From Flavobacterium gilvum (lineage in GTDB: Bacteria > Bacteroidota > Bacteroidia > Flavobacteriales > Flavobacteriaceae), in assembly GCF_001761465.1 (NCBI RefSeq), contig NZ_CP017479.1, positions 1,860,001 to 1,924,000 of the forward strand: 64,000 bases of DNA, given 5' to 3'. Positions 3,552 to 43,230 of the stretch are shown here, one piece after another; positions within the stretch are counted from its first letter, which is position 1, and every line of letters starts with the position of its first letter. Position numbers and translations under genes: made by a program. The notes beneath the pieces were generated by a model. It ran no database searches, was not told the DNA's origin, and saw only the letters and a program-made list of their open reading frames with translations.

Positions 3552-3669
3552 TTTGGGCGTGCCCCCGTTGAGAAATGGGGCTAATTTAGCATGCGGTTAT
3601 ACAGCCCCATTCCTCAACGCGGTCGGGCTATCCATGCTACTTCGGTAGCTTATTTCTATCCCTCACGCA
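3552..3669 (-). repeat. Structured repeat family B, copy 1
   Basis: Read on the minus strand: GCGTGAGGGATAGAAATA, hairpin GCTACcgaaGTAGC, ATGGATAGCCCGACCGC, a long stem (GTTGAGGAATGGGGCT with AGCCCCATTTCTCAAC) capped by a loop with TAACCGCA, then GGCACGCCCAAA. The outer GCGTG/CACGC pair closes the element. Copies 2 and 3 lie at 7345-7461 and 43111-43230. The stems change in sequence but keep pairing. It lies just after the YhcC-like gene, pointing towards it. Confidence 0.85.
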
Positions 3670-4124
3670 GCTTTCTGCAATGCAAGATATTTCGTTTTTC
3701 TAATATGGTTTTTTAATACTATTCATACATATAAAAAGTCCAATCTATTCGCTCTTTTTCTCCAATACTTCCTCAAAAAAAATTCTGTGGCTCAGGCTAC
3801 GCTATTATTTTTATTATTGTCTTGAAAAAAACACTTCGCATCTTTGAACTATTTTATATGCATAAACGGGGTAAGTGTTTTCTGTTGTTAATCAGCTCAG
3901 TTTTCATTCTGGAGGAATCTCACGTTGCTAGGATTCCCCCGAAATGACAATAGTGGGCATAGGTTTTGAGTGAAATTGCTAGATTATCATTTCATTTTAC
4001 TTTTTTTAAGAATAAAAATGATTTTTCGCAAATCCAAATTTGTATTAAAATATATCAAATCTTATTAAAATAAAGTCAAAAGTTATAAATAGTTGCTGTA
4101 AATCTTTAGCGTATTTCTCTTATC
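3670..4124. other. Gene-free stretch before narK
   Basis: No coding sequence was recognised. It holds AT-rich DNA and a short copy of the TCATTCTGGAGGAATCTC inverted repeat (3901-3950). The narK control sites begin at its right end. Confidence 0.6.
3901..3950. repeat. Repeat family C (TGTCATTCCGA type), short degenerate copy
   Basis: TTTTCATTCTGGAGGAATC and GGATTCCCCCGAAATGACAA form imperfect inverted arms around about 12 nt. It resembles the ends of the longer copies at 5956-6085, 32945-33050 and 43014-43085. Confidence 0.6.
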
Positions 4125-4136
4125 TGATAAAAGTCA
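4125..4136. promoter_or_regulatory. FNR/CRP-like box upstream of narK
   Basis: TGATAAAAGTCA fits the TGA-N6-TCA pattern of FNR/NnrR-family sites. Its centre is 57 bp before the centre of the AAAAGA-N8-TCTTTT palindrome. The same order and nearly the same spacing (53 bp) recur before nirK, which supports both sites. No Crp/Fnr gene is in the window. Confidence 0.45.
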
Positions 4137-4177
4137 TGTTTTGTTTTCATTTTGGCTATTAAATTTACATTGTAAAT

Positions 4178-4197
4178 AAAAGAGTGTTTTATCTTTT
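4178..4197. promoter_or_regulatory. Candidate Rrf2/NsrR-type operator at narK
   Basis: AAAAGAGTGTTTTATCTTTT: two inverted 6-mers (AAAAGA / TCTTTT) around 8 nt. Equivalent palindromes occur at ric, norC (twice) and nirK. It lies close to the expected transcription start, as for a repressor site. Confidence 0.6.
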
Positions 4198-4265
4198 TTA
4201 TAAAAATTTTGGCAGAATTTAATTTGAAGATGAAATTTCAATAGCAAAAACAAATACTTACTCAT

Positions 4266-5858
4266 ATGAAAACATGGTTAGACAAATGGGAACCAGAGAA
4301 TGAAACTTTCTGGAAAAATACAGGCAGTAAAATTGCCTGGAAAACTTTAACGATTACAACTTTGTCATTAATATTATCCTTTGCCTCATGGTTTATGATG
4401 AGCGTGATTGCGGTAAAATTACCGGGGTTAGGTTTCCCATTTTCCAAAGACCAATTATTTTGGTTGGTGGCTATACCAGGGTTGGCAGCGGGTTTTTTAC
4501 GGATTATTCACACTTTTATTTTGCCTATATTTGGAACAAGACACGTGGTGGCTGTAGCTACTTTGCTTAAACTAATTCCAGTAATCGGTATTGGGTTTGC
4601 GGTCATGGACACCAATACACCATTTTGGGTATTTGCCGTTTTGGCTTTTGCTTGTGGTTTTGGCGGTGGTGATTTCTCGTCTTTTATGCCTAGTACCAGT
4701 TTGTTTTTTCCAAAGAGACTGAAAGGAACCGCATTGGGAATCCAAGCTGGAATTGGGAACTTTGGAGTTTCCTTGGCCCAGTTTGTTACCCCACTTATTT
4801 TGAGTGTGAGTATCTACGGGGCTTCATCGGTATTTACGAGTATTGATGCACAAGAAACACAGAAAGTTTTAAAAGACTCGACAGTCGAGAAACAAAAAGA
4901 GGTTTTTGCGGCTTTGGATGCCGAAGTACAAACCAAAATTTTGGACAATGTTAAGAAACCAGTATTGGATTCGGTTTGTGAAGTAACAAGTACTAATGAA
5001 AAGGCCGAAATTTTCACAGCATTGCCATTGAAAGCGAAATCAAAAGCAATTGCCAATGCGAACCCCAAATTGGCAGCAAAAATATTAAACAACCTAAAAC
5101 CTGAAAATACGGCGGTTGTCAATAAGAAAATATATATTCAATCCGCCGCATTTTGGTACACTTCTTTTCTTTTGGTTTTGGCTGCGGTTAGTTGGTTCTT
5201 TTTGAAAAGTATTCCAATGCAGGCTTCTATAAAAGAGCAAATGGATATTTTTAAAAACAAGCACACCTGGTTCTGCACGATTACTTATGTAATGACTTTT
5301 GGTACATTCGCAGGTTTGTCGGCAGCATTTCCATTGATGATAAAATATTTGTATGGCGATTTTCCAGATGCACCAGACCCATTAGTGTATGCTTTTTACG
5401 GACCGCTGATTGGTTCAGCTAGCAGAATTGCTTTTGGTTTTGTTGCCGATAAAATTGGAGGAGCTATATTGACAACTATAACCGGAATCGGAATTTTAGC
5501 GGGTGCTGTTATTTTGGTTACGCAAGGATTGGTTTCGCCTACAAGTATGGATCAATTTCCGTTATTTGTGGGAGTGATTTTGTCGATGTTCTTTTTTACA
5601 GGAGTTGGAAATGCTGGTACTTTTAGACAGTTTCCTATTATATTTTCGGAGAATCAGCGTCAAGCTGCTGGGGTAATTGGATGGACAGCTGCCATTGCTG
5701 CATTTGGACCTTTTATTTTTTCAAAACTCATAGGAAACAATATCACAGCAAATGGAACTGTGAATCAGTTTTTTGTAGGCTTGATGGTTTTCGCTATATT
5801 AGCTACTGCTATCAATTGGTGGTTTTACAACCGCAAAGGATGTGAGAAACCGAGTTAA
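4266..5858 (+). CDS. narK: Nitrate/nitrite transporter NarK family (MFS)
   Basis: A 530-aa inner-membrane protein of the major facilitator superfamily. The nitrate-porter signature is at about 131-160 (GFGGGDFSSFMPSTSLFFPK) and again GIQAGIGNFGVS. Conserved substrate-binding arginines fit R79 (GFLRI) and R387 (SASRIAFG). The usual Asn of the GGGN signature is Asp here. Between transmembrane helices 6 and 7 lies a helical, non-membrane insert of roughly 100 residues (about 191-293) rich in Ala, Lys and Asn with a repeat-like pattern (AALDAEVQTKILDNVK, ANANPKLAAKILNNLK). It likely brings nitrate to the reductase encoded next and may exchange it for nitrite. FNR-like and Rrf2-like boxes precede it. 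Confidence 0.9.
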   Translation: MKTWLDKWEPENETFWKNTGSKIAWKTLTITTLSLILSFASWFMMSVIAVKLPGLGFPFSKDQLFWLVAIPGLAAGFLRIIHTFILPIFGTRHVVAVATLLKLIPVIGIGFAVMDTNTPFWVFAVLAFACGFGGGDFSSFMPSTSLFFPKRLKGTALGIQAGIGNFGVSLAQFVTPLILSVSIYGASSVFTSIDAQETQKVLKDSTVEKQKEVFAALDAEVQTKILDNVKKPVLDSVCEVTSTNEKAEIFTALPLKAKSKAIANANPKLAAKILNNLKPENTAVVNKKIYIQSAAFWYTSFLLVLAAVSWFFLKSIPMQASIKEQMDIFKNKHTWFCTITYVMTFGTFAGLSAAFPLMIKYLYGDFPDAPDPLVYAFYGPLIGSASRIAFGFVADKIGGAILTTITGIGILAGAVILVTQGLVSPTSMDQFPLFVGVILSMFFFTGVGNAGTFRQFPIIFSENQRQAAGVIGWTAAIAAFGPFIFSKLIGNNITANGTVNQFFVGLMVFAILATAINWWFYNRKGCEKPS

Positions 5859-5955
5859 CGACTAAATTTAAGGAGTGTTGACTCTAAAAGGTAACAAAGA
5901 AGCAAGTGTTCGGAAGATTAGCAAAACAATGTTCAGCTGTTTTTTGATACTATAT

Positions 5956-6085
5956 TGTCATTCCGATGTTGGAGGACACGAGCGGTAGCGAACTGGCGCA
6001 GCAATCTCCGTTGCTAAATCGACAAAGAATAGTGCTTTTGATTGCGGAGTTTCTTGCGGGGATGCTTCCTTCGTCAGAATGACAA
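5956..6085. repeat. Repeat family C, long copy
   Basis: TGTCATTCCGATG at the left and CGTCAGAATGACAAG at the right are inverted ends of a roughly 130-bp element filling most of the 301-bp gap between narK and the cytochrome b gene. The interior contains a second weaker inverted pair (GCAATCTCCG and GCGGAGTTTCTTGC). Nothing else was recognised in the gap. Confidence 0.65.
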
Positions 6086-6159
6086 GATTGAGGATTATTG
6101 GAATGTTAAAAAACGTTATCGGCAGTAGTTGAACTCCAACGAAAATATAATTTACACAT

Positions 6160-7209
6160 ATGAAAAACAAAACATACAATACCAAAGCATTGCTGATTGC
6201 TACAGCACTTTCAATATTTATGATTGTTCTGGTTTTTTTTGGTTCCAGAAAACTGCAAAATTTTGATGCAGCACTCGTGACTTATTTATTTGGGACGGTG
6301 TTTGCTTTTTTTGGAATCGTTTATCGTTATACGGTTTGGTTGCAAAGACCGCCGACTTGGATTTATTTTAAGCGCGGAATTACGTATTTGATAACCGGAA
6401 AAGTGTTTTCGCATTTTTGGTTTGCTACAAAAGAGACTGTTGAGAATATTGCTTTTCAAAAATTTATTTATCCAAGGGGAAAGTACCGTTGGGTAGCACA
6501 TTTTATGATTGCGGTGGGTTGTACATCGGCATTTTTGATTACGATACCGCTTACTTTTGGTTGGATTAATTTTGCAATGGCACCGAATACAATTTCTACT
6601 TATGAAGCCTATTTTTTTGGGTTTAAAGTAATGGATTTTGACTTGGATTCCATTACTGCTTTTTTGACTTTTCACGCTTTGAACTGGTCATCGTACTTGG
6701 TTATTTTTGGGTCGCTATATTATTTGAGAAGACGTTTGACGAATCCAGGTTTGATAGCCACGCAGTCTTTTGAAGGAGATTTGTTGCCACTCATTTTGTT
6801 GATTGCCATTTCGGTTACTGGTTTGGGATTGACCTATTCATATCAGTTCATGAAAGGATTTGCGTTTGATTTCTTGGCGGTTTTGCATGCTGTTACGGTA
6901 ATTATGTTTTTGATTTGGATTCCGTTCGGGAAGTTTTTTCATATTATTCAGCGTCCTGCTCAAATTGGGGCGCATATTTATAAGAAACAAGGAATGAAAA
7001 TGGGAATGGCAGTTTGCCCACATACTGGCGAGGAGTTTGCTACCAAATTGCATATCCAGGATTTGAAAACTGTTACTAAAGAATTGGGTTTCGATTTTAC
7101 GCATGAAGATGGAACGTCACACCTCGATTTAAGTCCGGAGGGCAAAAGATCCCGATTAGCAATGGCGCATTTGAAGGCTAGGAAAGAAGGCGGGAATTTG
7201 TTTGGGTAA
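6160..7209 (+). CDS. NarI-like membrane cytochrome b subunit of a nitrate reductase complex
   Basis: 349 aa with about six transmembrane helices (roughly 10-28, 37-57, 110-131, 164-188, 207-228, 237-261) and a soluble tail of about 80 residues. Histidines H114, H172, H243 and H261 sit in or next to helices. H243 and H261 are 18 residues apart, the same spacing as the heme-ligating His187/His205 of E. coli NarI. I infer a di-heme b quinol dehydrogenase that passes electrons to the molybdenum enzyme encoded next. It lies between narK and the catalytic subunit. It is clearly divergent from NarI, so the heme count and quinol site are unproven. Confidence 0.65.
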   Translation: MKNKTYNTKALLIATALSIFMIVLVFFGSRKLQNFDAALVTYLFGTVFAFFGIVYRYTVWLQRPPTWIYFKRGITYLITGKVFSHFWFATKETVENIAFQKFIYPRGKYRWVAHFMIAVGCTSAFLITIPLTFGWINFAMAPNTISTYEAYFFGFKVMDFDLDSITAFLTFHALNWSSYLVIFGSLYYLRRRLTNPGLIATQSFEGDLLPLILLIAISVTGLGLTYSYQFMKGFAFDFLAVLHAVTVIMFLIWIPFGKFFHIIQRPAQIGAHIYKKQGMKMGMAVCPHTGEEFATKLHIQDLKTVTKELGFDFTHEDGTSHLDLSPEGKRSRLAMAHLKARKEGGNLFG

Positions 7210-7344
7210 TATTTGCCCGGTAGAGACGTGATTTATCGCCTCTCATATTGCAGATTCAAGAGGTAGTTTAATAAATTAGACAGAAAAGGAAGATTGTGAT
7301 GAAAGGACAAAATGTTCTTGTTGAAAACTGATGTTGATGGCGAC

Positions 7345-7461
7345 CGCGTGAGGGATAGGAATAAGCTACCGAAGTAGCATGGATAGCCCGACCGCAATAG
7401 AGAATGGGCCGTGTAAGCGCAAAGTAAATTAGGCCCATATTCTATTGTGGTCACGCCCAGA
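7345..7461 (+). repeat. Structured repeat family B, copy 2
   Basis: GCGTGAGGGATAGGAATAA, hairpin GCTACcgaaGTAGC, GGATAGCCCGACCGC, long stem AATAGAGAATGGGCC with GGCCCATATTCTATT, capped by GTGTAAGCGCAAAG, then GGTCACGCCCA. The closing helix here is GCGTGA/TCACGC. It occupies the 326-bp gap before the nitrate reductase gene; the rest of that gap holds no recognisable gene. Confidence 0.85.
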
Positions 7462-7535
7462 AGAAGATTATTAGATTTCAGAATTTAGATTTCAGAATTT
7501 AGAAAAAGATAACAGACAACTGTAAAAAATATAAA

Positions 7536-9752
7536 ATGGCAAAATTACCGATAGCAGAGGAGAATATAGTAAAGCATTTTGGCCCGACGCTGAATTATGC
7601 GCCAAAAGACGGATATGTAGGCAGGGATGAGCCGGATGAGGCTGTTAAAACGCATTGTTGTTTTTGTGGAATGCAATGTGGTATTCAATTGCTTGTGAAA
7701 GAAAATAAGGTGGTGGGTTTTGAACCTTGGATGGAATTTCCTTTTAATGAAGGGAGGTTGTGTCCAAAGGGGGTTCAGCGCTATTTGCAGAATAACCACC
7801 CAGACCGACTGATGTCTCCGTTGAAAAGGGTGGAAGGGCAAGGATTTGTGCCTACTTCTTGGGACGATGCGATGGACAAAACGGTTTCGGAAATTAAACG
7901 CATTCAGGAAAAATACGGAAATGATGCGTTCTCGATGCTCTCGGGAGTTTCTTTGACGAATGAGAAAAGTTATTTGGTAGGAAAATTTGCCCGCGTGGCT
8001 CTTAAAACCAAAAATTTGGATTACAATGGACGTTTGTGCATGGTGAGTGCTGGGGCGGGGAATAAGAAAGCGTTTGGATTGGATAGGGGCTCCAATAATT
8101 ATTCGGATTTGGAATATGCCGAAGTAATTATTGTGGCAGGTGCCAATGTTAGCGAGACTTTTCCAACGCTGACACACTGGATTTGGAAAGCCCGTGACCG
8201 CGGTGCCAAAATTATAGTGGTTGACCCAAGGATGATTCCGCTGGCGCGAACTGCTGATATTCATTTGGACGTGCGTCCGGGAACTGACTCGGCTTTGTAC
8301 GGCGCGATGCTTAAGTATTTGGTGGATAACGATATGCTCGACCATGATTTTATAGATAATCATACTTCCGGTTTTCAGGAAACTATTGATGCTGTAAAAG
8401 ATTATACGCTGGAATGGGCAGAGGAAGTGACGGGAATTGATAAAAATAAAATACGTGAGGCCGCCGAATTGTGGGGCAAAGCCAAAACGAGTTTCCTGCT
8501 TCACGCACGAGGAATCGAACACCACTCAAAAGGGGTGGACAATGTTTTGGGCTGTATTAACTTGGTTTTGGCAACGGGAAGAATTGGCAGGCCATATTGT
8601 GGATATGCAACCATTACGGGACAAGGAAATGGTCAAGGCGGTAGAGAACACGGTCATAAATGTGATCAATTGCCCGGAAACAGGGATATAGAGAACCCGG
8701 AGCATCGCAAGTATATTTCGGAAGTTTGGGGAATTAACGAAAAAGATTTGCCAGGGAAAGGGTTGTCTGCTTATGAAATAATCGAGGCTATTCACCGTGG
8801 CGAAATTAAGGGGTTGATTTCGATTTGTTTTAATCCGTTGGTTTCTTTGCCAAATAGTAATTACGTTCGTGAGGCTTTGGAAAAACTGGAGTTTTATGTG
8901 TGTATTGACTTTTTTTTGAACGAAACTGCCCGTCACGCCGATATTGTACTGGCAGGTTCTTTGCAAGAGGAGGAGGAAGGTACGACGACCTCGGCAGAGG
9001 GAAGAGTAATTCGCATCCGTCAGGCGGTAACGCCTCCCGGTGACGCAAGAACAGATACTTCAATCTTTCTGGAATTGGCCAAACGTTTGGGAGTTCAAGA
9101 TAAATTTACCTATGAGAATAGCGAAAGCATTTTTAACGAATTGCGTGTGGCGTCCAGAGGAGGAACTGCAGATTACTATGGAATCACTTATAAGCGAATA
9201 GAGGATAATATGGGAATGTTTTGGCCTTGTCCAAGCGAAGATCATCCGGGAACACCGAGATTATGGGAGGACAAAAAGTTTAAAACGCCTGATGAGAAAG
9301 CACATTTTAATCCCGCGCCATATAAGCTCCCGGGTGAAGTTACTGATGCTGAATATCCAGTGATTTTGACAACAGGCCGTGTGGTGTCGCAATATTTGAG
9401 CGGTACACAAACTCGCAGAATCGGTAAATTGGTTGACCAGTATCCGGAGCCGTTATTGGAAATCCATCCAAAACTCGCGCAACAATATGGAATTAAACAG
9501 AGAGAATTGATAAAGGTTTCTACCCGACGTGGAACAGGAATTTTTCCCGCGAATATAGTCGAAACCATTCGGGAGGATACGGTTTTTATACCCTATCACT
9601 GGTCTGGTAAAAAATCGGCGAATCAATTAACACCGGGAACATTGGACCCAATTTCAAAAATACCGGAGTTTAAGGTATGCGCTTGCTATTTGGAACCGCT
9701 CAGGGAAATTGCGCCACCTTCGAAAGAATCAAAAGCCTATGCTAGTGTTTAA
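7536..9752 (+). CDS. Molybdopterin nitrate reductase catalytic subunit, NasA/NarB-like
   Basis: 738 aa. C41-x2-C44-x3-C48-x27-C76 bind an N-terminal 4Fe-4S cluster. [12 protein letters not shown] places the probable molybdenum-ligating cysteine at C168. [12 protein letters not shown] and a C-terminal molydopterin-dinucleotide binding domain ([18 protein letters not shown]) match the assimilatory, cytoplasmic nitrate reductases rather than NarG. There is no Tat signal, so the subunit should be cytoplasmic and reduce nitrate to nitrite. Neighbours encoding a cytochrome b, a four-cluster Fe-S protein and a Rieske protein suggest it draws electrons from the quinone pool, unlike soluble Nas enzymes. 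Another oxyanion substrate is possible, but narK next door favours nitrate. Confidence 0.82.
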
Positions 9753-9769
9753 TCTATAAGGAAGAAAAA

Positions 9770-10339
9770 ATGAATTACACCAGTTTCAATAAAAACGAGG
9801 AATTTTTTGTAGATATGCAGCGTTGCATTGGTTGTAAAGCCTGTGAAATGGCTTGTGCCGAATGCGAGACTAATGGACACGAAACCTTAATTCATGTTAA
9901 TTATGTGGATAGGGCTTCGACTGTGCAAACCACTGTTCAGGTATGCATGCATTGCGACGACCCAGTATGTGCGAATGTATGTCCGGCTGATGCAATTTCC
10001 AAAGATGAAAACGGAATTGTCCATACCGCTAATACTGAAAGATGTATTGGTTGTTCCAATTGTGTAATGGCTTGTCCTTTTGGTGTGCCCAAAAAAGAGG
10101 AATCTTATGATTTGATGATGAAGTGCACGATGTGCTATGATAGAACCAGTATTGGTAAAAAACCTATGTGTGCGACAGTTTGTCCTAGTGGTGCTTTGTT
10201 TTTTGGAACAAGAACAGAAATAGAGGAGATGCGACCGAATAGTACACCTGTAAATACTTTTATATTCGGGCAAGAAATTGTCAATACTAAAGTAAATATT
10301 ATGATGCCAAAAGGAAGTACTGAACTGATTATATATTAA
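9770..10339 (+). CDS. Four-cluster ferredoxin-type electron transfer subunit
   Basis: 189 aa of the DmsB/PsrB/HybA type. Four cysteine groups are visible: [39 protein letters not shown] and CTMCYDR...CATVCP, enough for four 4Fe-4S clusters. Such subunits wire a molybdenum catalytic subunit to a membrane quinol oxidase subunit. It begins 17 nt after the reductase gene, so it is in the same operon. No signal peptide is present, in keeping with a cytoplasmic complex. Confidence 0.88.
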
Positions 10340-10465
10340 GTATTGAGTAGGGAGAATTAAGTATTAAGATTTTAGAAAATAGAAAATAGAAGGCAGATTT
10401 AGATAGCTGAAAAACTTGAAACTTAACGCCTTTAAACCTTTAAACTTTTCACACAATAAAAATTT

Positions 10466-10981
10466 ATGTCAAAAGAAGATAATTTAAATAAAAACTGGAA
10501 GAAAGACTTCCCAATCCTTAAACAACAGGCAACCAATGTAAGTCGTCGTGATTTTGCTAAATTCCTAACACTTGTTTCTGGCGGACTGATGGTAGGTAGT
10601 GGGCTTGTAGCCGCCAAAGCCTATTTGCTTCCTAAAGAGGAAGTAGAGGGAGAACATTTTGTGTGCAAGAAGGAAGAGGTTCCATTGGGAGGAACTCGAG
10701 CTTTTGTGATTGAAGGAAGCACAATTCCTTATATTTTGATTCATCTCGAAAATGGGGATTTCAAAGCCTATGAACAGAAATGTACGCATCTGTCGTGTTC
10801 CGTATTTTATAAACCTGGCACTGGAATCATTCATTGTCCATGTCACGAAGGGTCATTTGACGCCAAAACAGGAGATGTTCTAGGAGGTCCTCCGCCAAGA
10901 GCATTGCCAAGTTTGGAAGTTTTTTTTAAGAAAAATGACGTTTATGTTAAAGCGTCCCAGCACGAAGAGCATGAAGTTTAA
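10466..10981 (+). CDS. Tat-exported Rieske 2Fe-2S protein
   Basis: 171 aa. SRRDFAKFL (26-34) followed by a hydrophobic helix (about 33-52) is a twin-arginine signal-anchor, so the iron-sulfur domain should face the periplasm. The Rieske motifs are C106-T-H108 and C124-P-C126-H127, and C111 with C126 would form the disulfide typical of high-potential quinol-oxidising Rieske proteins. It is encoded after the nitrate reductase subunits. I infer a periplasmic quinol-oxidation partner for the cytochrome b, reminiscent of haloarchaeal nar operons that also carry Rieske and cytochrome b genes. Confidence 0.85.
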   Translation: MSKEDNLNKNWKKDFPILKQQATNVSRRDFAKFLTLVSGGLMVGSGLVAAKAYLLPKEEVEGEHFVCKKEEVPLGGTRAFVIEGSTIPYILIHLENGDFKAYEQKCTHLSCSVFYKPGTGIIHCPCHEGSFDAKTGDVLGGPPPRALPSLEVFFKKNDVYVKASQHEEHEV

Positions 10982-10989
10982 AAGAATTA

Positions 10990-11048
10990 ACCGTTAAGAA
11001 ATTAAGAACATAAAGCTTACACTTAATTTTCCTTAATTTCTTAATGGT
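10990..11048. repeat. Intergenic palindrome (ACCGTTAAGAAATTAAG)
   Basis: ACCGTTAAGAAATTAAG and CTTAATTTCTTAATGGT are near-complementary arms. A related palindrome is at 31798-31884. It sits between the Rieske gene and the 83-aa gene and could mark the end of a transcript. Confidence 0.6.
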
Positions 11049-11112
11049 AAAAAGAAAAAAAAGGAATATTTTATTTTTAAAATAGGATGTTTTTGTATAA
11101 AACCTAATAACT

Positions 11113-11364
11113 ATGAGTACTTTTAGAACCAGTCAAAATCAAGCGAATCCAAATAAGCTGAACAATATTCTTTCGACCTTAATATTCATATTGATTTTGA
11201 ATGTCACCATACAGATTTGGTTGTTGTATGCCTCGTTGAACAATGCTTTGGATAATAATAAAGAAATTTTGATACCCGCATTTATCGCCTCTTTAATTCT
11301 GTTTTTAATTGGGTTTAGTTGGCTGTATTATTTGCCATCTGGAAATAAACCGCAAGAGAAATAG
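11113..11364 (+). CDS. Small two-helix membrane protein at the end of the nitrate reductase cluster
   Basis: 83 aa with two transmembrane segments (about 19-42 and 53-73) joined by a short Asn-rich polar loop; the C-terminus is charged. I do not recognise its family with certainty. It follows the Rieske gene on the same strand after 131 nt. It could be a small accessory subunit of the membrane complex, but the palindrome between them leaves open that it is a separate unit. Confidence 0.6.
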   Translation: MSTFRTSQNQANPNKLNNILSTLIFILILNVTIQIWLLYASLNNALDNNKEILIPAFIASLILFLIGFSWLYYLPSGNKPQEK

Positions 11365-11390
11365 TGGTATAGAAAGCCCTTATCCATTAC

Positions 11391-11418
11391 AATCCTAGTT
11401 TAACGACTGGGTTTTTTA
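11391..11418 (+). terminator. Probable rho-independent terminator
   Basis: AATCCTAGT ... ACTGGGTTT form a stem with one mismatch, followed by a T-run (GTTTTTTATT). It would end the nitrate reductase cluster. Confidence 0.5.
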
Positions 11419-11587
11419 TTATAAATATATTGCCTGTAATCAATCCTGATAATCAACACTCGGATAGTCCCAAAATACTTTTCTTTAAGAATGAGTTTTT
11501 CGTAAATATAATTTGCGGGGCTATTCTTTTGTTACAACTGTCTTTTATTTCAAAATCGATTATATTTACCCACAAAAAAATTAACAA

Positions 11588-11935: not shown

Positions 11936-12018
11936 TCGTTGGTCAATAATGAGGAGATAAAGTTTGTAATATTTAAATAGTCAAGAAAAGATAATTATCA
12001 GGAACAGTTTGTTTTTAT

Positions 12019-12048
12019 TTGTAACTATCTGATAATTAAGTATATTTG
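12019..12048 (+). promoter_or_regulatory. Promoter of the SRPBCC gene
   Basis: TTG at 12019-12021 and a perfect TATATTTG at 12041-12048, 19 nt apart, match the Bacteroidota housekeeping consensus. The start codon is about 28 nt downstream of the -7 element. Confidence 0.7.
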
Positions 12049-33729: not shown

Positions 33730-33731
33730 AA

Positions 33732-35562: not shown

Positions 35563-35592
35563 TAAACACAATTTTTTAATATTTTAGAAGTC

Positions 35593-35970
35593 ATGAAAAA
35601 ATACATTTTAGGTATAGCATTGATCGGATTAAGTCTGAAAGGGTTTAGTCAGGATGTAAACAAAGGTAAAGGCGTTTATTCCAAAACCTGTATCGCTTGT
35701 CATCAGGCTACGGGAGTTGGTGTTCCGGGAGCTTTTCCTCCGTTGGCAAAATCTGATTATTTAAATGCAGATGTGAATCGTGCCATTAAGCAGGTAATCA
35801 AAGGATCTAGTGCCCCGATAACCGTAAACGGGAAAAAGTATACTACAGCTATGCCTCCACAGGCCTTGAGTGACCAACAAATTGCAGACGTACTTACTTA
35901 TGTATATTCAAGTTGGGGAAATAGCAAAAAAGTAATAACTGTAGCTATGGTGAAAGCCCAAAGAAAATAA
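35593..35970 (+). CDS. Periplasmic cytochrome c paralogous to the NirK heme domain
   Basis: 125 aa with a signal peptide (cleavage near GFSQ) and the heme site CIACH. From the heme site to the end (VMVKAQRK-type ending) it closely matches the C-terminal domain of NirK; both end in MVKAQRK. It probably serves as a free electron carrier to NirK or NorC. It is encoded 30 nt after nirK. Confidence 0.9.
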   Translation: MKKYILGIALIGLSLKGFSQDVNKGKGVYSKTCIACHQATGVGVPGAFPPLAKSDYLNADVNRAIKQVIKGSSAPITVNGKKYTTAMPPQALSDQQIADVLTYVYSSWGNSKKVITVAMVKAQRK

Positions 35971-35996
35971 TAAAAACTAAAGCAAAAAGAATCGAA

Positions 35997-36761
35997 ATGT
36001 TTCCATTAAAAAAAATAACAACTTCCTTTTTATTGATGATAAACTGCATTCTTTTTGCTCAGGAAGTCAAAATGGCAACTATAAATGGGGGGACTTTTGT
36101 CCCCCTTTATGGTGCTACTGTCCAAAAGCCTGTCAAGGTGTCTCCTTTTAAAATAGATGTATATCCGGTTACTAATGCAGAATATCTTACTTTTGTTAAA
36201 AAATACCCAGAATACAGCCGTTCCAAAATTAAAGGGCTTTTTGCCGATAAAAGTTATCTTACTCAATGGGAAAGTGATTTCAGTTATGGAAAAAATAATT
36301 TGAGTAATGCTCCTGTAACCAATGTTTCCTGGTTTGCTGCCAAGAAATATTGTGAGTGCCAAGGAAAAAGATTGCCCTCTATGGACGAATGGGAGTATGT
36401 GGCTATGGCCGATGAAAAACGATCAGATGCCCGTACAAAAGAAGAATTCAATAGATACATTTTGTCTTGGTATGAGAAGCCTAAAACGTATTCGAATCCG
36501 GTTGGACAGACCTTCAAAAATTATTGGGGAGTCTATGATATGCACGGTTTGGTTTGGGAATGGACAGCAGACTTCAATAGTATTTTTCTTTCGGGGGAAT
36601 CTAGAAAAGACAAAGACACCGATAAGAATCTCTTTTGCGGAAGCGGATCAGTTAATGCAACCGATCTGATGAATTATGCCGCTTTTATGCGTTATGCTTT
36701 CAGAGGTAGTTTGAAAGCCAATTATACTACTAAAAATTTAGGTTTTAGATGTGCCAAATAA
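35997..36761 (+). CDS. nirV: NirV-like formylglycine-generating-enzyme-fold protein
   Basis: 254 aa with a signal peptide (IN CILFAQ) and the SUMF1/FGE domain: PFKIDVYPVTNAEYLTF, NAPVTNVSWFAAKKYC, GKRLPSMDEWEYVA, NYWGVYDMHGLVWEWT and NLGFRCAK. The cysteine pair of true FGE enzymes is not in its usual place. NirV homologues are encoded next to nirK in several denitrifiers; their exact role is not known. Confidence 0.82.
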   Translation: MFPLKKITTSFLLMINCILFAQEVKMATINGGTFVPLYGATVQKPVKVSPFKIDVYPVTNAEYLTFVKKYPEYSRSKIKGLFADKSYLTQWESDFSYGKNNLSNAPVTNVSWFAAKKYCECQGKRLPSMDEWEYVAMADEKRSDARTKEEFNRYILSWYEKPKTYSNPVGQTFKNYWGVYDMHGLVWEWTADFNSIFLSGESRKDKDTDKNLFCGSGSVNATDLMNYAAFMRYAFRGSLKANYTTKNLGFRCAK

Positions 36762-36796
36762 TGGTAATTTTTGAAATCCAACCAAAACCAAATAAA

Positions 36797-37438
36797 ATGA
36801 AATTTGATTTAGCCATAAAAGAAAAGAAAATCCTAAAAATGGGATGGTCTTACATTCTTTTTTTACCCGTTTTTTTAATCTTTTTTTCGCTTCAAAGCTG
36901 TAATAAAAAAGAAACTGTGGTCAAAGACAAGCCTATTTCTGATTTGTCTATTTATAATTTGCCTTCCAAATGGACTACACAAAATGGTCAGAATATTGAA
37001 CTGAAAGAGTTGAGAGGAAAAGTTTTGGTCATGGTAATGATTTACACGTCTTGTAAAGCCGCTTGTCCCCGTTTGGTGGCAGATATGAGGAATATTGAAT
37101 CCCGATTGCCAGATGATGTTAAGGAAAATGTCAAATTGGTAATGGTAAGTATTGATCCCGAAACGGATACCCCAAAACGGTTAAAAACCTTTTCGATTGA
37201 CAACAAAATGGAAGGTGATCAATGGTTGTTTTTGCGTTCAACGGAAGAAAATACAAGGGAGTTTGCAGCTGTTTTGGCCGTTAATTATAAAAAAATATCT
37301 CCGATGGATTTTTCCCATTCCAATATCATAAGCGTGTTTAATGCAGAAGGAGAATTGGCTTATCAGCAAGAAGGATTGGGAGTAAATTCAGATGAAACGA
37401 TCAAAAAAATTACAGAAGAAGCAGCGAAACTAAACTAA
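36797..37438 (+). CDS. SCO1/SenC-type copper chaperone
   Basis: 213 aa from ATG 36797. A lipobox FFSLQSC precedes the thioredoxin-like fold. The copper ligands are C-K-A-A-C in YTSCKAACP and the His in DFSHSN. It most likely loads copper into NirK, which is encoded three genes upstream, or into a cytochrome oxidase. Confidence 0.88.
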   Translation: MKFDLAIKEKKILKMGWSYILFLPVFLIFFSLQSCNKKETVVKDKPISDLSIYNLPSKWTTQNGQNIELKELRGKVLVMVMIYTSCKAACPRLVADMRNIESRLPDDVKENVKLVMVSIDPETDTPKRLKTFSIDNKMEGDQWLFLRSTEENTREFAAVLAVNYKKISPMDFSHSNIISVFNAEGELAYQQEGLGVNSDETIKKITEEAAKLN

Positions 37439-37459
37439 AACTAACTAAAATTTCAATAA

Positions 37460-38737
37460 ATGAAACTATTTAAAATGATGGTACTGGCCGTTGGATTACT
37501 GGCCGGAGGTACTGTTTTTGCACAAGAATTTGATGCCAATTTACAAATCAAACCCCGTTACGAATTTAGAAACGGATATAAAGCGCCAATTCCTCATGGA
37601 GAAACTCCCGGACAATTTATTTCATCAAGATCACGTTTGAATTTGAATTTCAAACAAGATCAATTTGTTACCAAATTTACGATTCAAAATGTACGCGTTT
37701 GGGGAGATGTAGCCACAAATGCAAAATCAGATGTAAATGGTATTCAGGTATTCGAAGCTTGGGCGCAATACAATTTCAACGATAAATGGAGTACCCGTTT
37801 AGGCCGTCAGGTGATTTCGTACGACAATCAGCGTATTCTTGGGGAAGCCGACTGGGGTATGCAAGCGCAAAGTCATGATGCGGCATTGGTTTCGTACAAG
37901 AACAAAAAAAGCCAATTGGATGTTGCGTTTTCCTATAGTGCGAATGCAGAAACCGATATCGCTACACCTTATACAGTTGCTAATTACAAGACGATGCAAT
38001 ATGCCTGGTATCATAATGAGTTTGGGAAATTAAACATGAGTTTGTTGTTTTTGAATACTGGTTATGAAAATAAATTGACGCCTCCAATTCCAACCCCGAC
38101 ACCGGAATTAAAAGTGGATTATATGCAGACATTTGGAACCTATATGAATTCCAAAGGTAAATCTTGGGACGGAAATTTATGGTTCTACGGACAAACTGGA
38201 AAAAGCAATACTTATAACGTAAGTGCTTTTGATGCCGCACTTAATTTTAATTATGCTTTGACCGATAAGTTTAAAGCAGGTCTTGGTTATGAATACCTGT
38301 CAGGAAAAAGCCAATCAGATAAAAGCACTGACATAAAATCGTTCTATCCACTCTTTGGAACCAACCACGGATTCAATGGTTATATGGACTATTTCTACGT
38401 TGGAAACCACAGGAATTCAGTAGGACTTCAGGATGCGTTTTTGAAATTTGGTTATAATGTAAATAAATGGCAGTTTGCTTTGTTACCACATATTTTCAAT
38501 TCAGCGAACACCGTTTTGGATGCTACCGGAAACAAAATGGACAACTATCTTGGAACCGAAATTGATTTAACTTTTGGGTATGCTGTTCATAAATTTGTAA
38601 ATGTGACAGGTGGTTATTCACAAATGTTTGCCTCAGATACCATGCAAAGACTCAAAGGAGGCGATGTTGATCATACCAACAATTGGGCTTGGTTGTGTGT
38701 AAATGTGAATCCTCAGGTTTTTTCTTATAAAAAATAA
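37460..38737 (+). CDS. Outer-membrane porin, alginate-export family type
   Basis: 425 aa with a signal peptide (GGTVFAQ). The rest alternates hydrophobic and polar residues as a beta-barrel; GRQVISYDNQRILGEADW is typical of the alginate-export-like family. It is the last gene of the nirK operon, so it may let nitrate, nitrite or copper cross the outer membrane. Substrate is not known. Confidence 0.8.
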   Translation: MKLFKMMVLAVGLLAGGTVFAQEFDANLQIKPRYEFRNGYKAPIPHGETPGQFISSRSRLNLNFKQDQFVTKFTIQNVRVWGDVATNAKSDVNGIQVFEAWAQYNFNDKWSTRLGRQVISYDNQRILGEADWGMQAQSHDAALVSYKNKKSQLDVAFSYSANAETDIATPYTVANYKTMQYAWYHNEFGKLNMSLLFLNTGYENKLTPPIPTPTPELKVDYMQTFGTYMNSKGKSWDGNLWFYGQTGKSNTYNVSAFDAALNFNYALTDKFKAGLGYEYLSGKSQSDKSTDIKSFYPLFGTNHGFNGYMDYFYVGNHRNSVGLQDAFLKFGYNVNKWQFALLPHIFNSANTVLDATGNKMDNYLGTEIDLTFGYAVHKFVNVTGGYSQMFASDTMQRLKGGDVDHTNNWAWLCVNVNPQVFSYKK

Positions 38738-38757
38738 TTATTAATTTACTTTTATTG

Positions 38758-38793
38758 AAAAAGGGAGCTTCGATTTTGGAGCTCCTTTTTTTG
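38758..38793 (+). terminator. Terminator of the nirK operon
   Basis: AAAAAGGGAGCT and AGCTCCTTTTTTT form a strong stem ending in a T-tract, 20 nt after the porin stop codon. Confidence 0.85.
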
Positions 38794-38816
38794 TTGGGTT
38801 TTATAATTTTTAAGGT

Positions 38817-39053
38817 TTACAGTTCAGTAATCCAATCTGAATCTTCTTTGGTGAGTTGTTCTTCAGAAAAGGCATTTTTAAATGTTAAGTCTTTATCTAT
38901 TTCTCTTACCATTTCCAATTCATTTTCATTTAAGTGTTTAATTTCATTCGGATTCTCCGGTTGAAGAAAATTCATTATCTGCTTTAGCAAATCAACATCA
39001 TCAACAGATTTTATTTTGTCGATTATTTTTTGTTTTAATTCTAAAGTATTCAT
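38817..39053 (-). CDS. Small acidic protein, possibly an orphan antitoxin
   Basis: 78 aa, mostly helical: MNTLELKQKIIDKIKSVDDV ... LKQIMNFL, then FSEEQLTKEDSDWITEL. It resembles the small antitoxin-like proteins that precede RelE/ParE toxins in Bacteroidota. No toxin gene follows it; the nirK-operon terminator lies there instead. It could therefore be an orphan remnant. Confidence 0.6.
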   Translation of the reverse strand: MNTLELKQKIIDKIKSVDDVDLLKQIMNFLQPENPNEIKHLNENELEMVREIDKDLTFKNAFSEEQLTKEDSDWITEL

Positions 39054-39127
39054 AACGTGTAGTTTTGAATACTAAAGTTACGAAAAATAGAAGAGGGTTG
39101 TTTGGTTAGGGACGATGTTTTTGAATA

Positions 39128-39159
39128 AAAAAAGGAACTCCGTAATGAAGTTCCTTTTT
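39128..39159. terminator. Terminator after lysS
   Basis: AAAAGGAACT and AAGTTCCTTTTT pair around a short loop; A and T tracts on the two sides would serve either direction. Confidence 0.75.
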
Positions 39160-39180
39160 GATATTGTCCATTTAATATAT

Positions 39181-40884
39181 TTACTCCACCAATTCCATTA
39201 CCTTGCTTTCGCCGTCAACACTTACTTTAATCAAGTTGTTTTTGGCTAAACCTTTGGTAGCAACATCCCATTTCTTACCGCTTAAGGCAGCAGTAACTTT
39301 TAGTTGCGCTAAATCCATCTTATTTTCATTTGCTTTAAGTAAAGCAATGATTAATTTCTCTTCTTCAGACAATTCAATCTGAATTTGTTTTTTCTCTGGA
39401 CGCATCTGCGGGAAAAACAACACTTCCTGAATAGAAGCATTGTTGGTCAAGAACATCATCAAACGATCCATTCCAATTCCTAAACCTGATGTTGGAGGCA
39501 TACCGTATTCTAAAGCTCTTAGGAAATCCTCGTCGATAGTTCCGGTAGCTTCATCATCTCCTTTTTCAGACAGACGAAGTTGGTCTTCAAAACGCTCTCT
39601 TTGGTCAATTGGGTCGTTCAATTCAGAGTAAGCATTGGCAACTTCTTTACCACAAACCATCAATTCAAAACGTTCCGTCAAATCCGGATTGTCACGATGC
39701 TCTTTACAAAGAGGTGACATTTCCTTTGGATAATCCGTTATGAAAGTTGGCTGAATATAATTCCCTTCGCATTTCGCTCCAAAAATCTCATCAATCAATT
39801 TTCCTTTACCCATTGTTTCGTCGACTTCAATTCCCATTCCTTTGGCAGCTTCAAAAAGTTCAGCTTCCGTTTTTCCGGAAATATCAAAACCAGTAAAATG
39901 TTTGATAGAATCTGTCATTGTAACACGTGCATACGGCGCTTTGAAACTGATTTTGTGTTCGCCAAAAGTAACATCGCTCGTACCGTTTACCGACACAGCG
40001 CAATGCTCCAAAAGCCTTTCGGTGAAATCCATCATCCAATTGTAGTCTTTGTAGGCTACATATATTTCCATAGCGGTAAATTCCGGGTTGTGCGTTCTGT
40101 CCATTCCTTCGTTACGGAAGTTTTTCGAAAACTCATACACACCGTCAAATCCACCTACGATTAATCTTTTTAAATACAATTCGTTGGCAATACGCATATA
40201 TAGCGGAATGTCAAGTGAGTTGTGGTGCGTGATAAAAGGTCTCGCTGCAGCACCACCAGGAATCGATTGCAAAACTGGAGTTTCTACTTCAAGATAACCC
40301 GCATCATTAAAGAAACCACGCATTGCATTAAACAATTTGGTTCTTTTGATAAAAGTTTCTTTCACTTGTGGGTTCACGGTCAAATCCACATAACGCATTC
40401 TGTAGCGCAATTCAGCGTCGTTAAAGGCGTCATACACTTTTCCGTCCTCATCTGTTTTTGGCAACGGCAACGGACGCAAAGTTTTGCTCAAAAATGTAAA
40501 ACCACTCACACGGATACATTTTGCACCAACCTGAGTCGTAAACAATTCTCCTTCAATACCAATAAAATCGCCCAAATCGGTCAATTTCTTGAAAACCTGA
40601 TTGTACAAAGTTTTATCATCGCCTTCACACAAAACGTCACGATTCACGTACATTTGAATACGCCCTTCGCTATCCTGCAACTCGGCAAAACAAGCTTTTC
40701 CTTGATCTCTCACACTCATCAAACGTCCGGCAACAATAACCTTCTTGCCTTCCTCAAAATTTTCTTTTACTTGCTTAGAAGTATGATTTACAGGAAAAAG
40801 GTTAGCAGGATAAGGGTTAATTCCCAAATTGCGTAAGTTTTGAAGTTTTTCTCTACGGATGATTTCTTGTTCGGATAATGCCAT
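39181..40884 (-). CDS. lysS: Lysyl-tRNA synthetase, class II
   Basis: 567 aa. The N-terminal OB-fold (VIVAGRLMSVRDQGKACFAELQD) binds the anticodon, and the class II catalytic core has RTHNPEFTAMEIYVAY (motif 2) and GLGIGMDRLMMFL (motif 3). A C-terminal extension of about 60 residues (KLIIALLKANENKMDLAQL) is common in this phylum. It attaches lysine to tRNA-Lys. Confidence 0.97.
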   Translation of the reverse strand: MALSEQEIIRREKLQNLRNLGINPYPANLFPVNHTSKQVKENFEEGKKVIVAGRLMSVRDQGKACFAELQDSEGRIQMYVNRDVLCEGDDKTLYNQVFKKLTDLGDFIGIEGELFTTQVGAKCIRVSGFTFLSKTLRPLPLPKTDEDGKVYDAFNDAELRYRMRYVDLTVNPQVKETFIKRTKLFNAMRGFFNDAGYLEVETPVLQSIPGGAAARPFITHHNSLDIPLYMRIANELYLKRLIVGGFDGVYEFSKNFRNEGMDRTHNPEFTAMEIYVAYKDYNWMMDFTERLLEHCAVSVNGTSDVTFGEHKISFKAPYARVTMTDSIKHFTGFDISGKTEAELFEAAKGMGIEVDETMGKGKLIDEIFGAKCEGNYIQPTFITDYPKEMSPLCKEHRDNPDLTERFELMVCGKEVANAYSELNDPIDQRERFEDQLRLSEKGDDEATGTIDEDFLRALEYGMPPTSGLGIGMDRLMMFLTNNASIQEVLFFPQMRPEKKQIQIELSEEEKLIIALLKANENKMDLAQLKVTAALSGKKWDVATKGLAKNNLIKVSVDGESKVMELVE

Positions 40885-41035
40885 TACGTTCTGATTTTTA
40901 AGTCCGCAAAGATAGTCTTTATGTGCTAAAATTGCAAAACCCTAAAAATGATTTTTTAGCTCCCTCTCGACAGGAGAGGGCGGGGGGTGAGGTTGATTTT
41001 TTGGAGCAGAATTTTTCGTGTTTTAAAGACCATTC

Positions 41036-41106
41036 CTCCCGCTATTCGTTTCAATCTTGTGGCCCGAACACCGGGCCACAAGGATTTTCACTTCTATCGG
41101 GGCTAT
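41036..41106 (-). repeat. Dispersed repeat family A, copy 2
   Basis: Read on the minus strand: TAGCCCCGATAGAAGTGAAAATCC, hairpin TTGTGGCCCG / CGGGCCACAA, AAGATTGAAACGAATAGCGGGA. It lies in the 425-bp lysS-lipB spacer, which also has the nested palindromes at 41149-41238 and no gene. CTGCTCCAAAAA is also shared beyond its end. Confidence 0.8.
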
Positions 41107-41148
41107 TTTACAAGTTTATTTTTGTAGGATATTTGTTAAAGCGCGTTT

Positions 41149-41238
41149 CCTAACAGGTTTCCAAAAACCTGTTAGGTATTGTCATTCTTTAGTTTATTGA
41201 AGATATTAAACCTAACAGGTTTTTGGAAACCTGTTAGG
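41149..41238. repeat. Nested palindromes (CCTAACAGGTTT)
   Basis: A self-complementary 28-mer CCTAACAGGTTT-ccaa-AAACCTGTTAGG (41149-41176) recurs as its reverse complement at 41211-41238 with 34 nt between. The DNA could form two small hairpins or one large one. Confidence 0.85.
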
Positions 41239-41254
41239 ATGAAATAAACATTTG

Positions 41255-41262
41255 TACATTTG
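41255..41262 (+). promoter_or_regulatory. -7 element of lipB
   Basis: TACATTTG matches TAnnTTTG 48 nt before the lipB start. No clean TTG was found at -33. Confidence 0.45.
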
Positions 41263-41309
41263 CAAAAATAAATCTTAGAATCTTAGATTCTCAGCATCTC
41301 AGAAAAAAA

Positions 41310-42011
41310 ATGAACAAAACCATCCAACTTCAAGATTTAGGAAATAAAGATTACCAAGAAACGTGGGCTTATCAGGAAGAACTGTTCAAGGAAATTGTCG
41401 ATTTGAAGATTCAAAACAGGAAGGACGAAACCACTCTTGCAACTCCCAATTATTTTCTTTTTGTAGAGCATCCTCATGTTTATACCTTAGGGAAAAGCGG
41501 AGATTTCAGTAATTTGCTTTTATCTGAACAGCAGTTGGAAGCCAAAGGAGCTACTTTTTACAAAATAAATCGTGGTGGCGATATTACCTATCACGGACCG
41601 GGACAAATTGTTGGTTATCCTATTTTGGACTTGGAGAATTTCTTTTCGGATATTCATAAATACCTGCGTCTTTTGGAAGAAACCATTATTCTTACTTTAC
41701 AGGAATACGGATTGGAATGTGGTCGAAGCGATGGAGAAACCGGAGTTTGGCTAGGAGTTGGAACACCATTTGCCCGTAAAATTTGCGCCATGGGAGTTCG
41801 CGCTTCGCGTTGGGTAACGATGCACGGTTTTGCCCTAAACGTCAATGCCGATTTGGGTTATTTTGATAATATCATTCCGTGCGGAATCCGTGGGAAAGCT
41901 GTAACTTCTTTAAATGTTGAACTTGGTATTGATAAAGTGGATGAACAGGAAGTGAAAGAAAAAATCCTAAAACATTTTTCTCAATTATTCGAAGCGGAGT
42001 TTCTTATTTAA
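41310..42011 (+). CDS. lipB: Lipoyl (octanoyl) transferase
   Basis: 233 aa. RGGDITYHGPGQIVGYPI carries the catalytic-site His, KICAMGVR the conserved Lys, and IPCGIRGKAVTS the active-site Cys (C191). It moves octanoyl from acyl-carrier protein to lipoyl domains of dehydrogenases. Confidence 0.95.
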   Translation: MNKTIQLQDLGNKDYQETWAYQEELFKEIVDLKIQNRKDETTLATPNYFLFVEHPHVYTLGKSGDFSNLLLSEQQLEAKGATFYKINRGGDITYHGPGQIVGYPILDLENFFSDIHKYLRLLEETIILTLQEYGLECGRSDGETGVWLGVGTPFARKICAMGVRASRWVTMHGFALNVNADLGYFDNIIPCGIRGKAVTSLNVELGIDKVDEQEVKEKILKHFSQLFEAEFLI

Positions 42012-42097
42012 GATTGTTGATTAACGATTTTTGATTTCAGATGTTTGGCGTACTTGTTAATCGTTATTTTTTTATCCGTCAGTTTAGAAATCTACAA

Positions 42098-42757
42098 TCA
42101 AAAATCTAACGTAAGTTGATCTGGTAAAAGTCTAAAACTCATTCGGTGGTATTTTGTGGAGCCGTATTTTTTGATGGCTTCGCGGTGTTCTTTTGTTGGA
42201 TAGCCTTTGTTTTTTTTCCAATTGTACATGGGGAATTCTTCGTGAATTTTGTCCATATATTCATCCCGATAGGTTTTTGCCAAAATAGAAGCGGCTGCAA
42301 TACTCAGGTATTTTGAATCTCCTTTGATGATGCTTTGGTTCGGGATTGATTTTAATAATTCGATTTCGGCTTTGGAAAATTGTTTTCCGAAAGTATTTTT
42401 TAAGCCCAATTTGGCATTCAAAGAACGGTTGCCATCCACGATAATAAATTCGGGAGTTTGATTCAGTTTCAAAATGCATTCCTGCATTCCTTTCATCGAA
42501 GCGTTTAGTATGTTTATTTCGTCAATTTCGTTGGGATGCAAGTGTGTCACGGCAAATGAAATGGCTTCTGCTTCTATAATAGGTCTGAGTTTTTCTCTTG
42601 CTTTTTCGGTTAGTTGCTTGCTGTCGTTTAGTATTTCGTTTTTAAAATCAATTGGCAAAATTACAGCGGCGGCGGTTACCGGACCAGCAAGACAGCCTCG
42701 TCCGGCTTCGTCGGTGCCGGTTTCAAGCAGGAAAGAGGAAAAATTATTTTGAAGCAT
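42098..42757 (-). CDS. rnhB: Ribonuclease HII
   Basis: 219 aa from ATG 42757; a GTG seven codons earlier lies right behind the apparent -7 element and was not used. [14 protein letters not shown] has the first two acidic catalytic residues, and DGNRSL... and [17 protein letters not shown] the others. It cuts the RNA strand of RNA-DNA hybrids. Confidence 0.93.
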
Positions 42758-43013
42758 ATTGAGATTTTTTCGAGGCACAAATATTGTAATTTTTTTTTAT
42801 AAATTAATTTAAGAGATTTTAGATTTTAGATTGCTTCGCCAGTTCGCCTTGCAGGCTCGTGTAACGATTGTCGATTTTTGATTTGGTGTGACTAAATTGT
42901 AGGTTCTGTATTTTACTTTTTAAATCCAAAATCAGCAATTTTTTTATTGTTTAATGACATTGCGCGACCGCTAGAGGACAATGTCATTAAGTTAAGGATA
43001 AAAACCATAGTTT
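42758..43013. other. Gene-free stretch between rnhB and the porin gene, left part
   Basis: AT-rich DNA with no recognisable gene. It contains the left arm of the TTAATGACATTG nested repeat that starts at 42951. Confidence 0.55.
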
Positions 43014-43110
43014 TGTCATTCCGAGGCACGAGGAATCTCACTAGAGACTCACGTTATGTGATTTCTCCTCCGTCGAAATGACATAAAAAGAGCTTAACTT
43101 AATGACATTG
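42951..43110. repeat. Inverted repeat (TTAATGACATTG) with family C element nested inside
   Basis: TTAATGACATTG (from 42951) and CAATGTCATTAAGTTAAG (about 42979-42996) form one pair; CTTAACTTAATGACATTG (43093-43110) pairs with the latter. A family C element (43014-43085) sits between the last two, as if inserted. Confidence 0.65.
43014..43085. repeat. Repeat family C, copy before the porin gene
   Basis: TTGTCATTCCGAGGCACGAGG and CTCCGTCGAAATGACAT are imperfect inverted ends around AATCTCACTAGAGACTCACG. Confidence 0.7.
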
Positions 43111-43230
43111 TGCGAGAGGGATAGAAGCTAGCTACCAAAGTAGCGCGGATAGCCCGACAGCATCATGATAAAAGGGCGTATAACCGCAAAGTGAAATAGC
43201 CCTTTTATCGGGATGGTGGCTCGCCCAAAT
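43111..43230 (+). repeat. Structured repeat family B, copy 3
   Basis: GCGAGAGGGATAGAAGCTA, hairpin GCTACcaaaGTAGC, GGATAGCCCGACAGC, long stem GATAAAAGGGC with GCCCTTTTATC, capped by GTATAACCGCAAAG, then GGCTCGCCCAAA. The closing helix is GCGAG/CTCGC, where copies 1 and 2 have GCGTG/CACGC: a paired change. Confidence 0.85.

Follow-up and report, generated by a model that had tools for sequence, protein, structure and literature searches.

What kind of element recurs, with covarying helices, between the genes of Flavobacterium gilvum? The question arises from a 64,000-nucleotide stretch of its genome (NZ_CP017479.1, positions 1,860,001 to 1,924,000 of the forward strand; hereafter, the window), in which an earlier note had singled out three copies of a structured intergenic sequence, family B, as an RNA that might match the Rfam family Flavo-1 (RF01705). 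We find that family B is probably a dispersed repeat with a terminator rather than an RNA gene. The reading we favor, with confidence a little above even, is a Flavo-1-type dispersed extragenic repeat that carries a terminator, in part a bidirectional one, which would end transcription in the cell. The fold, its covariation, the kinship with Flavo-1, the bias in place and orientation and the terminator-like layout were all computed directly, as were the recurrence of the element at corresponding gene ends of several species and the replacement of one of its arms at orthologous sites.

A family B element spans ≈116 bp and comprises a closing helix, a first arm (arm 1) set on a conserved 6×6 internal loop, and a long second arm (arm 2). 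The closing helix of 5 bp leads to a GGG/CCC helix, the symmetric loop AUAGAA/GGAUAG, a GC/GC step, and the arm-1 mini-hairpin; the layout is completed by arm 2, which has up to 19 pairs, and the tail CCCAAAT. The inner A-U pair is replaced by G-C in 13 of the 89 rows of one alignment (A4, below). All three window copies are where the earlier note had placed them, as matches to a covariance model, R1, built from 17 copies of this genome (alignment A3); their R1 E-values are circular, since the model was built partly from them.

3555..3669, minus strand: family B copy 1, whole element (R1 match, fold), with the tail AAAT at 3551-3554
3636..3649, minus strand: copy 1 arm-1 mini-hairpin, GCTACCGAAGTAGC (fold)
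3563..3622, minus strand: copy 1 arm 2, a long hairpin (fold), its T-tract too short for the terminator test
7345..7458, plus strand: family B copy 2, whole element (R1 match, fold)
7365..7378, plus strand: copy 2 arm-1 mini-hairpin (fold)
7392..7450, plus strand: copy 2 arm 2 (fold), which failed the terminator test
43111..43226, plus strand: family B copy 3, whole element (R1 match, fold)
43158..43218, plus strand: copy 3 arm 2 (fold), terminator-like in both directions

Of the sequence blocks that the earlier note considered shared, GAGGGATAG and GGATAGCCCGAC are indeed common to the three copies, together with GCTACCGAAGTAGC (copies 1 and 2) or GCTACCAAAGTAGC (copy 3); TAACCGCA is restricted to copies 1 and 3, being replaced in copy 2 by TAAGCGCA, and copy 2 also reads GAGGGATAGGAA. 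The compensatory change in the closing helix is as described there, with GCGTG/CACGC in copies 1 and 2 and GCGAG/CTCGC in copy 3. Relative to shuffled sequences, the folds of copies 1-3 have z-scores of −5.1, −5.6, and −4.5, and for each copy none of 200 shuffles was as low.

The pairing extends well beyond these three copies. In A3 (17 rows), a plain MAFFT alignment, 97.5% of the cells are paired, as are 96.0% in A4 (89 rows), 96.8% in A5 (94 rows), and 98.6% in A6 (81 rows), the last three being fitted to the model and leaning towards it. Changes on both sides affect 21, 33, 33, and 26 of the 36 pairs, respectively, in 62, 459, 568, and 475 cells; the shuffled values are 13.1, 98.3, 132.0, and 118.8, and the observed counts were reached by none of the 500 shuffles per alignment. 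Slid controls, which preserve relatedness where the shuffles do not, gave maxima of 16, 96, 108, and 118 cells. The covariation of family B is very strong and not a product of chance, and the earlier conclusion that its shape is under selection holds up.

Wobble pairs indicate the strand on which this constraint acts. Among 259 distinct copies (183 plus 81 rows, five named-genome copies being identical to earlier rows), G-T or T-G pairs outnumber A-C or C-A pairs 276 to 27, and 137 to 22 without the columns beside the T-tract, a ratio that may be inflated because the alignment model prefers G-U to A-C. The smaller sets give 196 to 24 (183 copies) and 87 to 4 (A6). An A-C pair here is a G-U pair on the opposite strand, and the constraint therefore lies on the strand given in the earlier note (the element strand). 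These counts fit RNA and single-stranded DNA alike. On the opposite strand, arm 1 reads GCTACTTCGGTAGC and its commonest loop is cUUCGg, an extra-stable RNA tetraloop, a hint contrary to that of the wobble pairs.

Covariation together with element-strand wobble pairs is what a discrete non-coding RNA gene transcribed on that strand would leave, and Flavo-1 is itself typed as a small RNA gene in Rfam. Nevertheless, TAnnTTTG, the −7 motif of Bacteroidetes promoters, is not enriched in the 100 bp upstream of the elements (8 found, 13.6 expected). A transcript ending in arm 2 would moreover miss the 3′ strand of the closing helix, which covaries as well. The RNA identity proposed in the earlier note is thus not established, and we consider an RNA gene quite improbable. 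Also counting against it, for Flavo-1 though not for family B itself, are the hits in F. psychrophilum, which an excerpt of PMC9723704, a transcriptome study, places sense or antisense of transcribed regions and often in no such region, with no functional clue in that excerpt.

Family B is an extended relative, or variant, of Flavo-1, which is listed as a candidate structured RNA in an excerpt of Weinberg et al. 2010 (PMC2864571). Three chimeric copies, L021, L018, and L003, combine the family B scaffold with a different arm 1 and score 62.4, 52.9, and 52.6 against RF01705, above its gathering score of 42; a further locus, L014, falls below it at 37.9. The canonical copies, including the three in the window, reach the gathering score of no Rfam family, and L010-L012 and L004 show no RF01705 match at their places up to an E-value of 5. 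The suspected kinship is therefore borne out through the chimeric copies and not by a direct Rfam assignment of the canonical ones. The 6×6 internal loop that separates the outer helix of Flavo-1 from its arm is also present in family B, as seen by eye in the alignments to RF01705 and in A3-A6, and the window itself holds two Flavo-1 copies.

2395..2472, plus strand: Flavo-1 copy (RF01705, Rfam, 72.8 bits), with the 6×6 internal loop as in family B
41031..41108, minus strand: Flavo-1 copy (RF01705, Rfam, 73.1 bits), with the 6×6 internal loop as in family B

Matches to the Flavo-1 model occur in 26 of 40 genomes (23 of the 25 from the genus, 3 of the 15 others), with up to 88 per genome, counts that are lower bounds because only 89 candidates per genome were scored. 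At two site pairs, L021/L242 and L014/L233, each linked by one flank, the type of arm 1 differs between species.

Family B is likewise numerous. The window's genome (G000) is a single contig of 4.40 Mb, in which GGATAGCCCGAC occurs exactly 21 times and the reversed-pattern control not at all. R1 finds 44 matches there; among the 37 listed are 35 separate elements and 2 antisense overlaps, and with L003 and L018 counted the total is at least 37 elements, dispersed over both strands. No replication-strand bias stood out by eye on the copy coordinates, no computation having been made. Across 40 genomes including this one, R1 matches occur in 21, namely 19 of the 25 in the genus and 2 of the 15 from other families; relative genomes carry 0 to 66 matches. 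An order-wide scan at E ≤ 1e-12 with stricter filters found R1 in 9 of 148 genomes, all of the window's own genus (119 genomes without a match are outside the listing). A pattern scan of named genomes yielded at least 120 stretches; 80 of them were listed, 79 under the title Flavobacterium and the remaining one as Flavobacteriaceae bacterium. Viral contigs gave no exact pattern match, and plasmids and phages no blastn match. We found no title or abstract describing family B in the open-licence literature, subscription papers being outside that search.

Where these copies lie was assessed in four genomes, on 132 rows that form 87 independent sites (one element appears twice among the rows, as L183 and L216, and L233 is an antisense overlap). 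At 59 sites the 3′-side gene is antisense to the element, and at 27 it is not; tandem sites alone divide 39 to 14 in the same sense, and at convergent sites the nearer stop codon is on the 3′ side in 16 of 19. Named genomes agree: the 3′-side gene is antisense in 64 of 71 loci, at a median of 12 bp from its stop codon, and in 21 of 27 flank clusters (21 to 6). This count leaves out 10 of 81 matches lying within 400 bases of a locus end. The abutting proteins form 81 clusters, the largest with 20, 11, 11, 9, and 8 loci, after omission of nine variant A5 loci and of loci with little downstream sequence. Pfam assigns four of these five to ExbD (20), CorA (11), pyrroline-5-carboxylate reductase (9), and NUDIX (8) proteins, and the remaining cluster of 11 presumably resembles sialate esterase; no common theme is apparent. 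In the window, copy 1 follows this rule.

2535..3521, plus strand: radical SAM protein gene (open reading frame, Pfam), stop codon 33 bp from copy 1

A position directly behind stop codons would also suit an element of the 3′-untranslated region that, as part of the abutting gene's sense mRNA, acts as a barrier against 3′ exonucleases in the manner of repetitive extragenic palindromic (REP) sequences, and the cUUCGg loop appears on precisely that gene-sense strand. The wobble pairs, however, are on the opposite strand (the 276 to 27 excess given above, with its possible inflation), and we regard such a barrier as improbable.

The base of arm 2 suggests another role, as A's adjoin its GC stem on the 5′ side and T's on the 3′ side. 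We scored this layout in 246 copies of 108-125 bases, to which the test was confined. Read in the element direction, 187 copies are terminator-like; read in the gene direction, 135 are, and 131 qualify both ways. Only 7-10 (element direction) and 15-22 (gene direction) pass in three dinucleotide shuffles, 44-56 and 39-46 in five permutations of the order of stem pairs, and 32-42 and 26-32 when pairs are flipped at random. An intrinsic-terminator layout, a GC stem-loop followed by a T-tract, is thus present in family B overall, with controls far lower. The T-tract exceeds the A-tract in 135 copies, falls short of it in 8, and equals it in 103; with the longer T-tract on the element strand, the stronger of the two directions is that of the element, which points to the abutting gene.

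Two gene ends, exbD and proC, allow loci with and without the element to be compared. The loci are the 30 best matches for each gene rather than a random sample. Family B occupies 17 exbD ends, parts of it 3, and 10 are without it; the corresponding proC numbers are 10, 3, and 17, one of the partial loci, L451, being in fact a plain-terminator locus. The element thus sits at 27 of the 60 ends, starting 7-29 bp behind the stop codon, and in 21 of these 27 the terminator detected in the gene direction lies within the element. Among the 27 element-free loci, our script finds a plain terminator in 13. The search for a further terminator ahead of the element was confined to loci with >25 bases between the stop codon and the start of the element, and a T-run behind the whole element was not taken as a terminator because it is weaker in the wider set. 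Short variants, in which arm 1 is of another kind and arm 2 is almost absent, are present at the proC ends L433 in G104 and L450 in G051, and remnants occur at L416, L420, L424, and L439, so that different superfamily members are found at one gene end from species to species.

Several observations weigh against a terminator-bearing repeat. Both the gene calls and the terminator test are home-made; 55 of the 246 copies pass the test in neither direction, and 14 of the 27 element-free exbD and proC loci show no terminator by the script. Because the element begins so close to the stop codon, there is little room for a second terminator, and their mutual exclusion is partly trivial. The stronger T-tract side, judged from sequence, favors termination towards the abutting gene and not of it, and insulation from incoming transcription is the only explanation that we can offer. 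A plain terminator would have no use for the scaffold or for arm 1. The window copies are also poor examples. Copy 2 lies between two plus-strand genes, 135 bp from the stop codon upstream and 77 bp from the start downstream, and copy 3 between divergent genes, so that only copy 1 is at a gene 3′ end; the terminator test is passed by copy 3 alone, in both directions, and not by copies 1 and 2. The element-free loci without a scripted terminator and the poor fit of the window copies are what hold our confidence so near to even.

Comparison of orthologous sites reveals how the element changes. Flanks link 63 site pairs among G000, G045, G071, and G061 (both flanks in 33 pairs, one flank in 30), and 19 of 35 G000 elements have a partner site, only part of the relatives' copies having been fetched. 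Arm 2 was compared in 54 of these pairs, the other nine being two-element loci, a duplicate, or variant elements: 706 base pairs are unchanged, 221 changed on both sides, and 43 on one; a further 45 are disrupted in one of the copies, and 3 do not pair in either. Marks of the site in the scaffold persist while arm 2 is replaced as a block; GCGAG/CTCG is kept at the copy 3 site in three species, and GAGTG/CACTC at L017, L204, and L239. On a rank scale over all copies fetched from the other genome, where 0 is the closest and 0.5 the random expectation (45 pairs, excluding those with G061), the orthologous arm 2 stands at 0.52 for G000-G071, 0.38 for G000-G045, and 0.24 for G045-G071. Within G000, L001 and L056 share nearly one arm 2, and their partners in G045 and G071 differ. 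This pattern fits exchange between copies, with independent insertion at the same spot appearing less likely. The place of copy 2 holds an element in G000 and G071 and none in 12 relatives, the flanking intergenic DNA being too diverged for borders to be drawn.

A second repeat, at 42979-43110 of the window, abuts copy 3 and has 18-bp inverted ends (CAATGTCATTAAGTTAAG … CTTAACTTAATGACATTG). One of its ends forms the 5′ border of 14 of the 35 family B copies in this genome; the same border is found in 0 of 44 rows from G045, 0 of 43 from G071, and 0 of 10 from G061, as if this repeat were invading family B, or had spread with it, in this lineage only.

Many copies scattered on both strands, numbers that vary widely among relatives (0 to 66 matches), and arms exchanged between copies are also what a purely selfish, non-autonomous mobile repeat of the REP or miniature inverted-repeat transposable element type would produce. 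A transposase would recognize the fold in single-stranded DNA, with which the excess of G-T over A-C pairs is compatible, and a covarying closing helix requires a strand that spans the whole element; gene 3′ ends would be tolerated sites and the terminator layout a by-product. Yet no partner was found, the Y1 transposase genes of the host and its relatives being flanked by other repeats, and neither was any clean empty site whose borders could be defined. Several species retain copies at the same gene ends, and the layout of A-tract and T-tract exceeds that in the stem-permuted controls. Pure selfishness therefore seems to us rather unlikely.

Still less probable, and already largely refuted, is the narrower idea that family B is the REP of a Bacteroidetes REP-associated tyrosine transposase (RAYT, or TnpA-REP). 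According to an excerpt of PMC6006769, the repeats that flank Bacteroidetes RAYTs of subclass 2.6 are atypical and also have copies elsewhere, and an excerpt of PMC12306157 gives REP-like counts for two Flavobacterium. R1 matches nevertheless occur in only 4 of 40 fetched Y1 loci of relatives, Flavo-1 matches in 3 of the 30 scanned, and none directly flanks the Y1 gene in ten inspected loci. Presence of Y1 (23 of 40 genomes) does not track the element, G004 having no Y1 by this search yet both elements. We rejected this identity, as the three host Y1 genes (L022, L023, and L024 in G000) are flanked by GCTCC…GGAGC repeats and ten relatives' genes by other repeats. The GCTCC…GGAGC repeats are probably the REPs of the host Y1 transposases. 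In G018, where neither Flavo-1 nor R1 has a match, a group II intron domain match (RF01999, 80.9 bits; L162, 2723-2841) lies close to a stop-interrupted Y1 transposase match.

Returning to a repeat that carries a terminator, we propose that family B is a folded, non-coding, dispersed chromosomal element of Flavobacterium on a Flavo-1 scaffold of closing helix, GGG/CCC helix, 6×6 loop AUAGAA/GGAUAG, and arm 1. Arm 2 would act as an intrinsic terminator (A-tract, GC stem-loop, and T-tract), two-way in about half of the copies, and the element, mainly behind stop codons, would take the place of the plain terminator found at the same gene ends of other species. The whole fold might be recognized in single-stranded form, perhaps by a protein responsible for copying or moving the element, and the exchange of arms could be gene conversion between copies. 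A bolder extension, which we offer tentatively and hold to be somewhat doubtful, is that Flavo-1 and family B together make up a single modular superfamily, whose single-strand-folding members move terminator cassettes around flavobacterial genomes, with a conserved three-way-junction scaffold read by a copying machinery and with exchangeable arms, host terminators having been replaced at many genes across the genus; the terminator arm would then make landing behind a stop codon harmless or useful. Placed among modular repeats that lie at gene ends and swap arms, with terminator-like hairpins in family B, Flavo-1 gains a testable role. The case also cautions against taking covariation to prove that an RNA gene is present. 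Should arm 2 indeed terminate transcription, a repeat family would have taken over the ends of many host genes across a whole genus.

Among the closest known systems, Flavo-1 shares with family B the loop AUAGAA/GGAUAG between a GC-rich outer and an inner helix, and a high copy number in the same genus. It differs in that the closing helix and arm 2 are additions of family B, which usually also has the arm-1 mini-hairpin; moreover, 0 of 17 Flavo-1 copies are terminator-like, and their orientation at tandem sites is unbiased (6 to 6). REPs, too, lie near gene 3′ ends. Like family B, REPs and bacterial interspersed mosaic elements, with their RAYTs (PMC6006769), are dispersed, extragenic, and hairpin-forming. 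Family B, however, is much larger and has a covarying three-way fold, with no GTAG-type foot noted and no RAYT association found. Bidirectional intrinsic terminators share with family B the A-tract, GC stem-loop, and T-tract between gene ends, and some of them are made of repeats, such as the DNA uptake sequences in Neisseria and Haemophilus. Unlike in those terminators, the hairpin of family B is one arm of a larger conserved fold held in common with Flavo-1.

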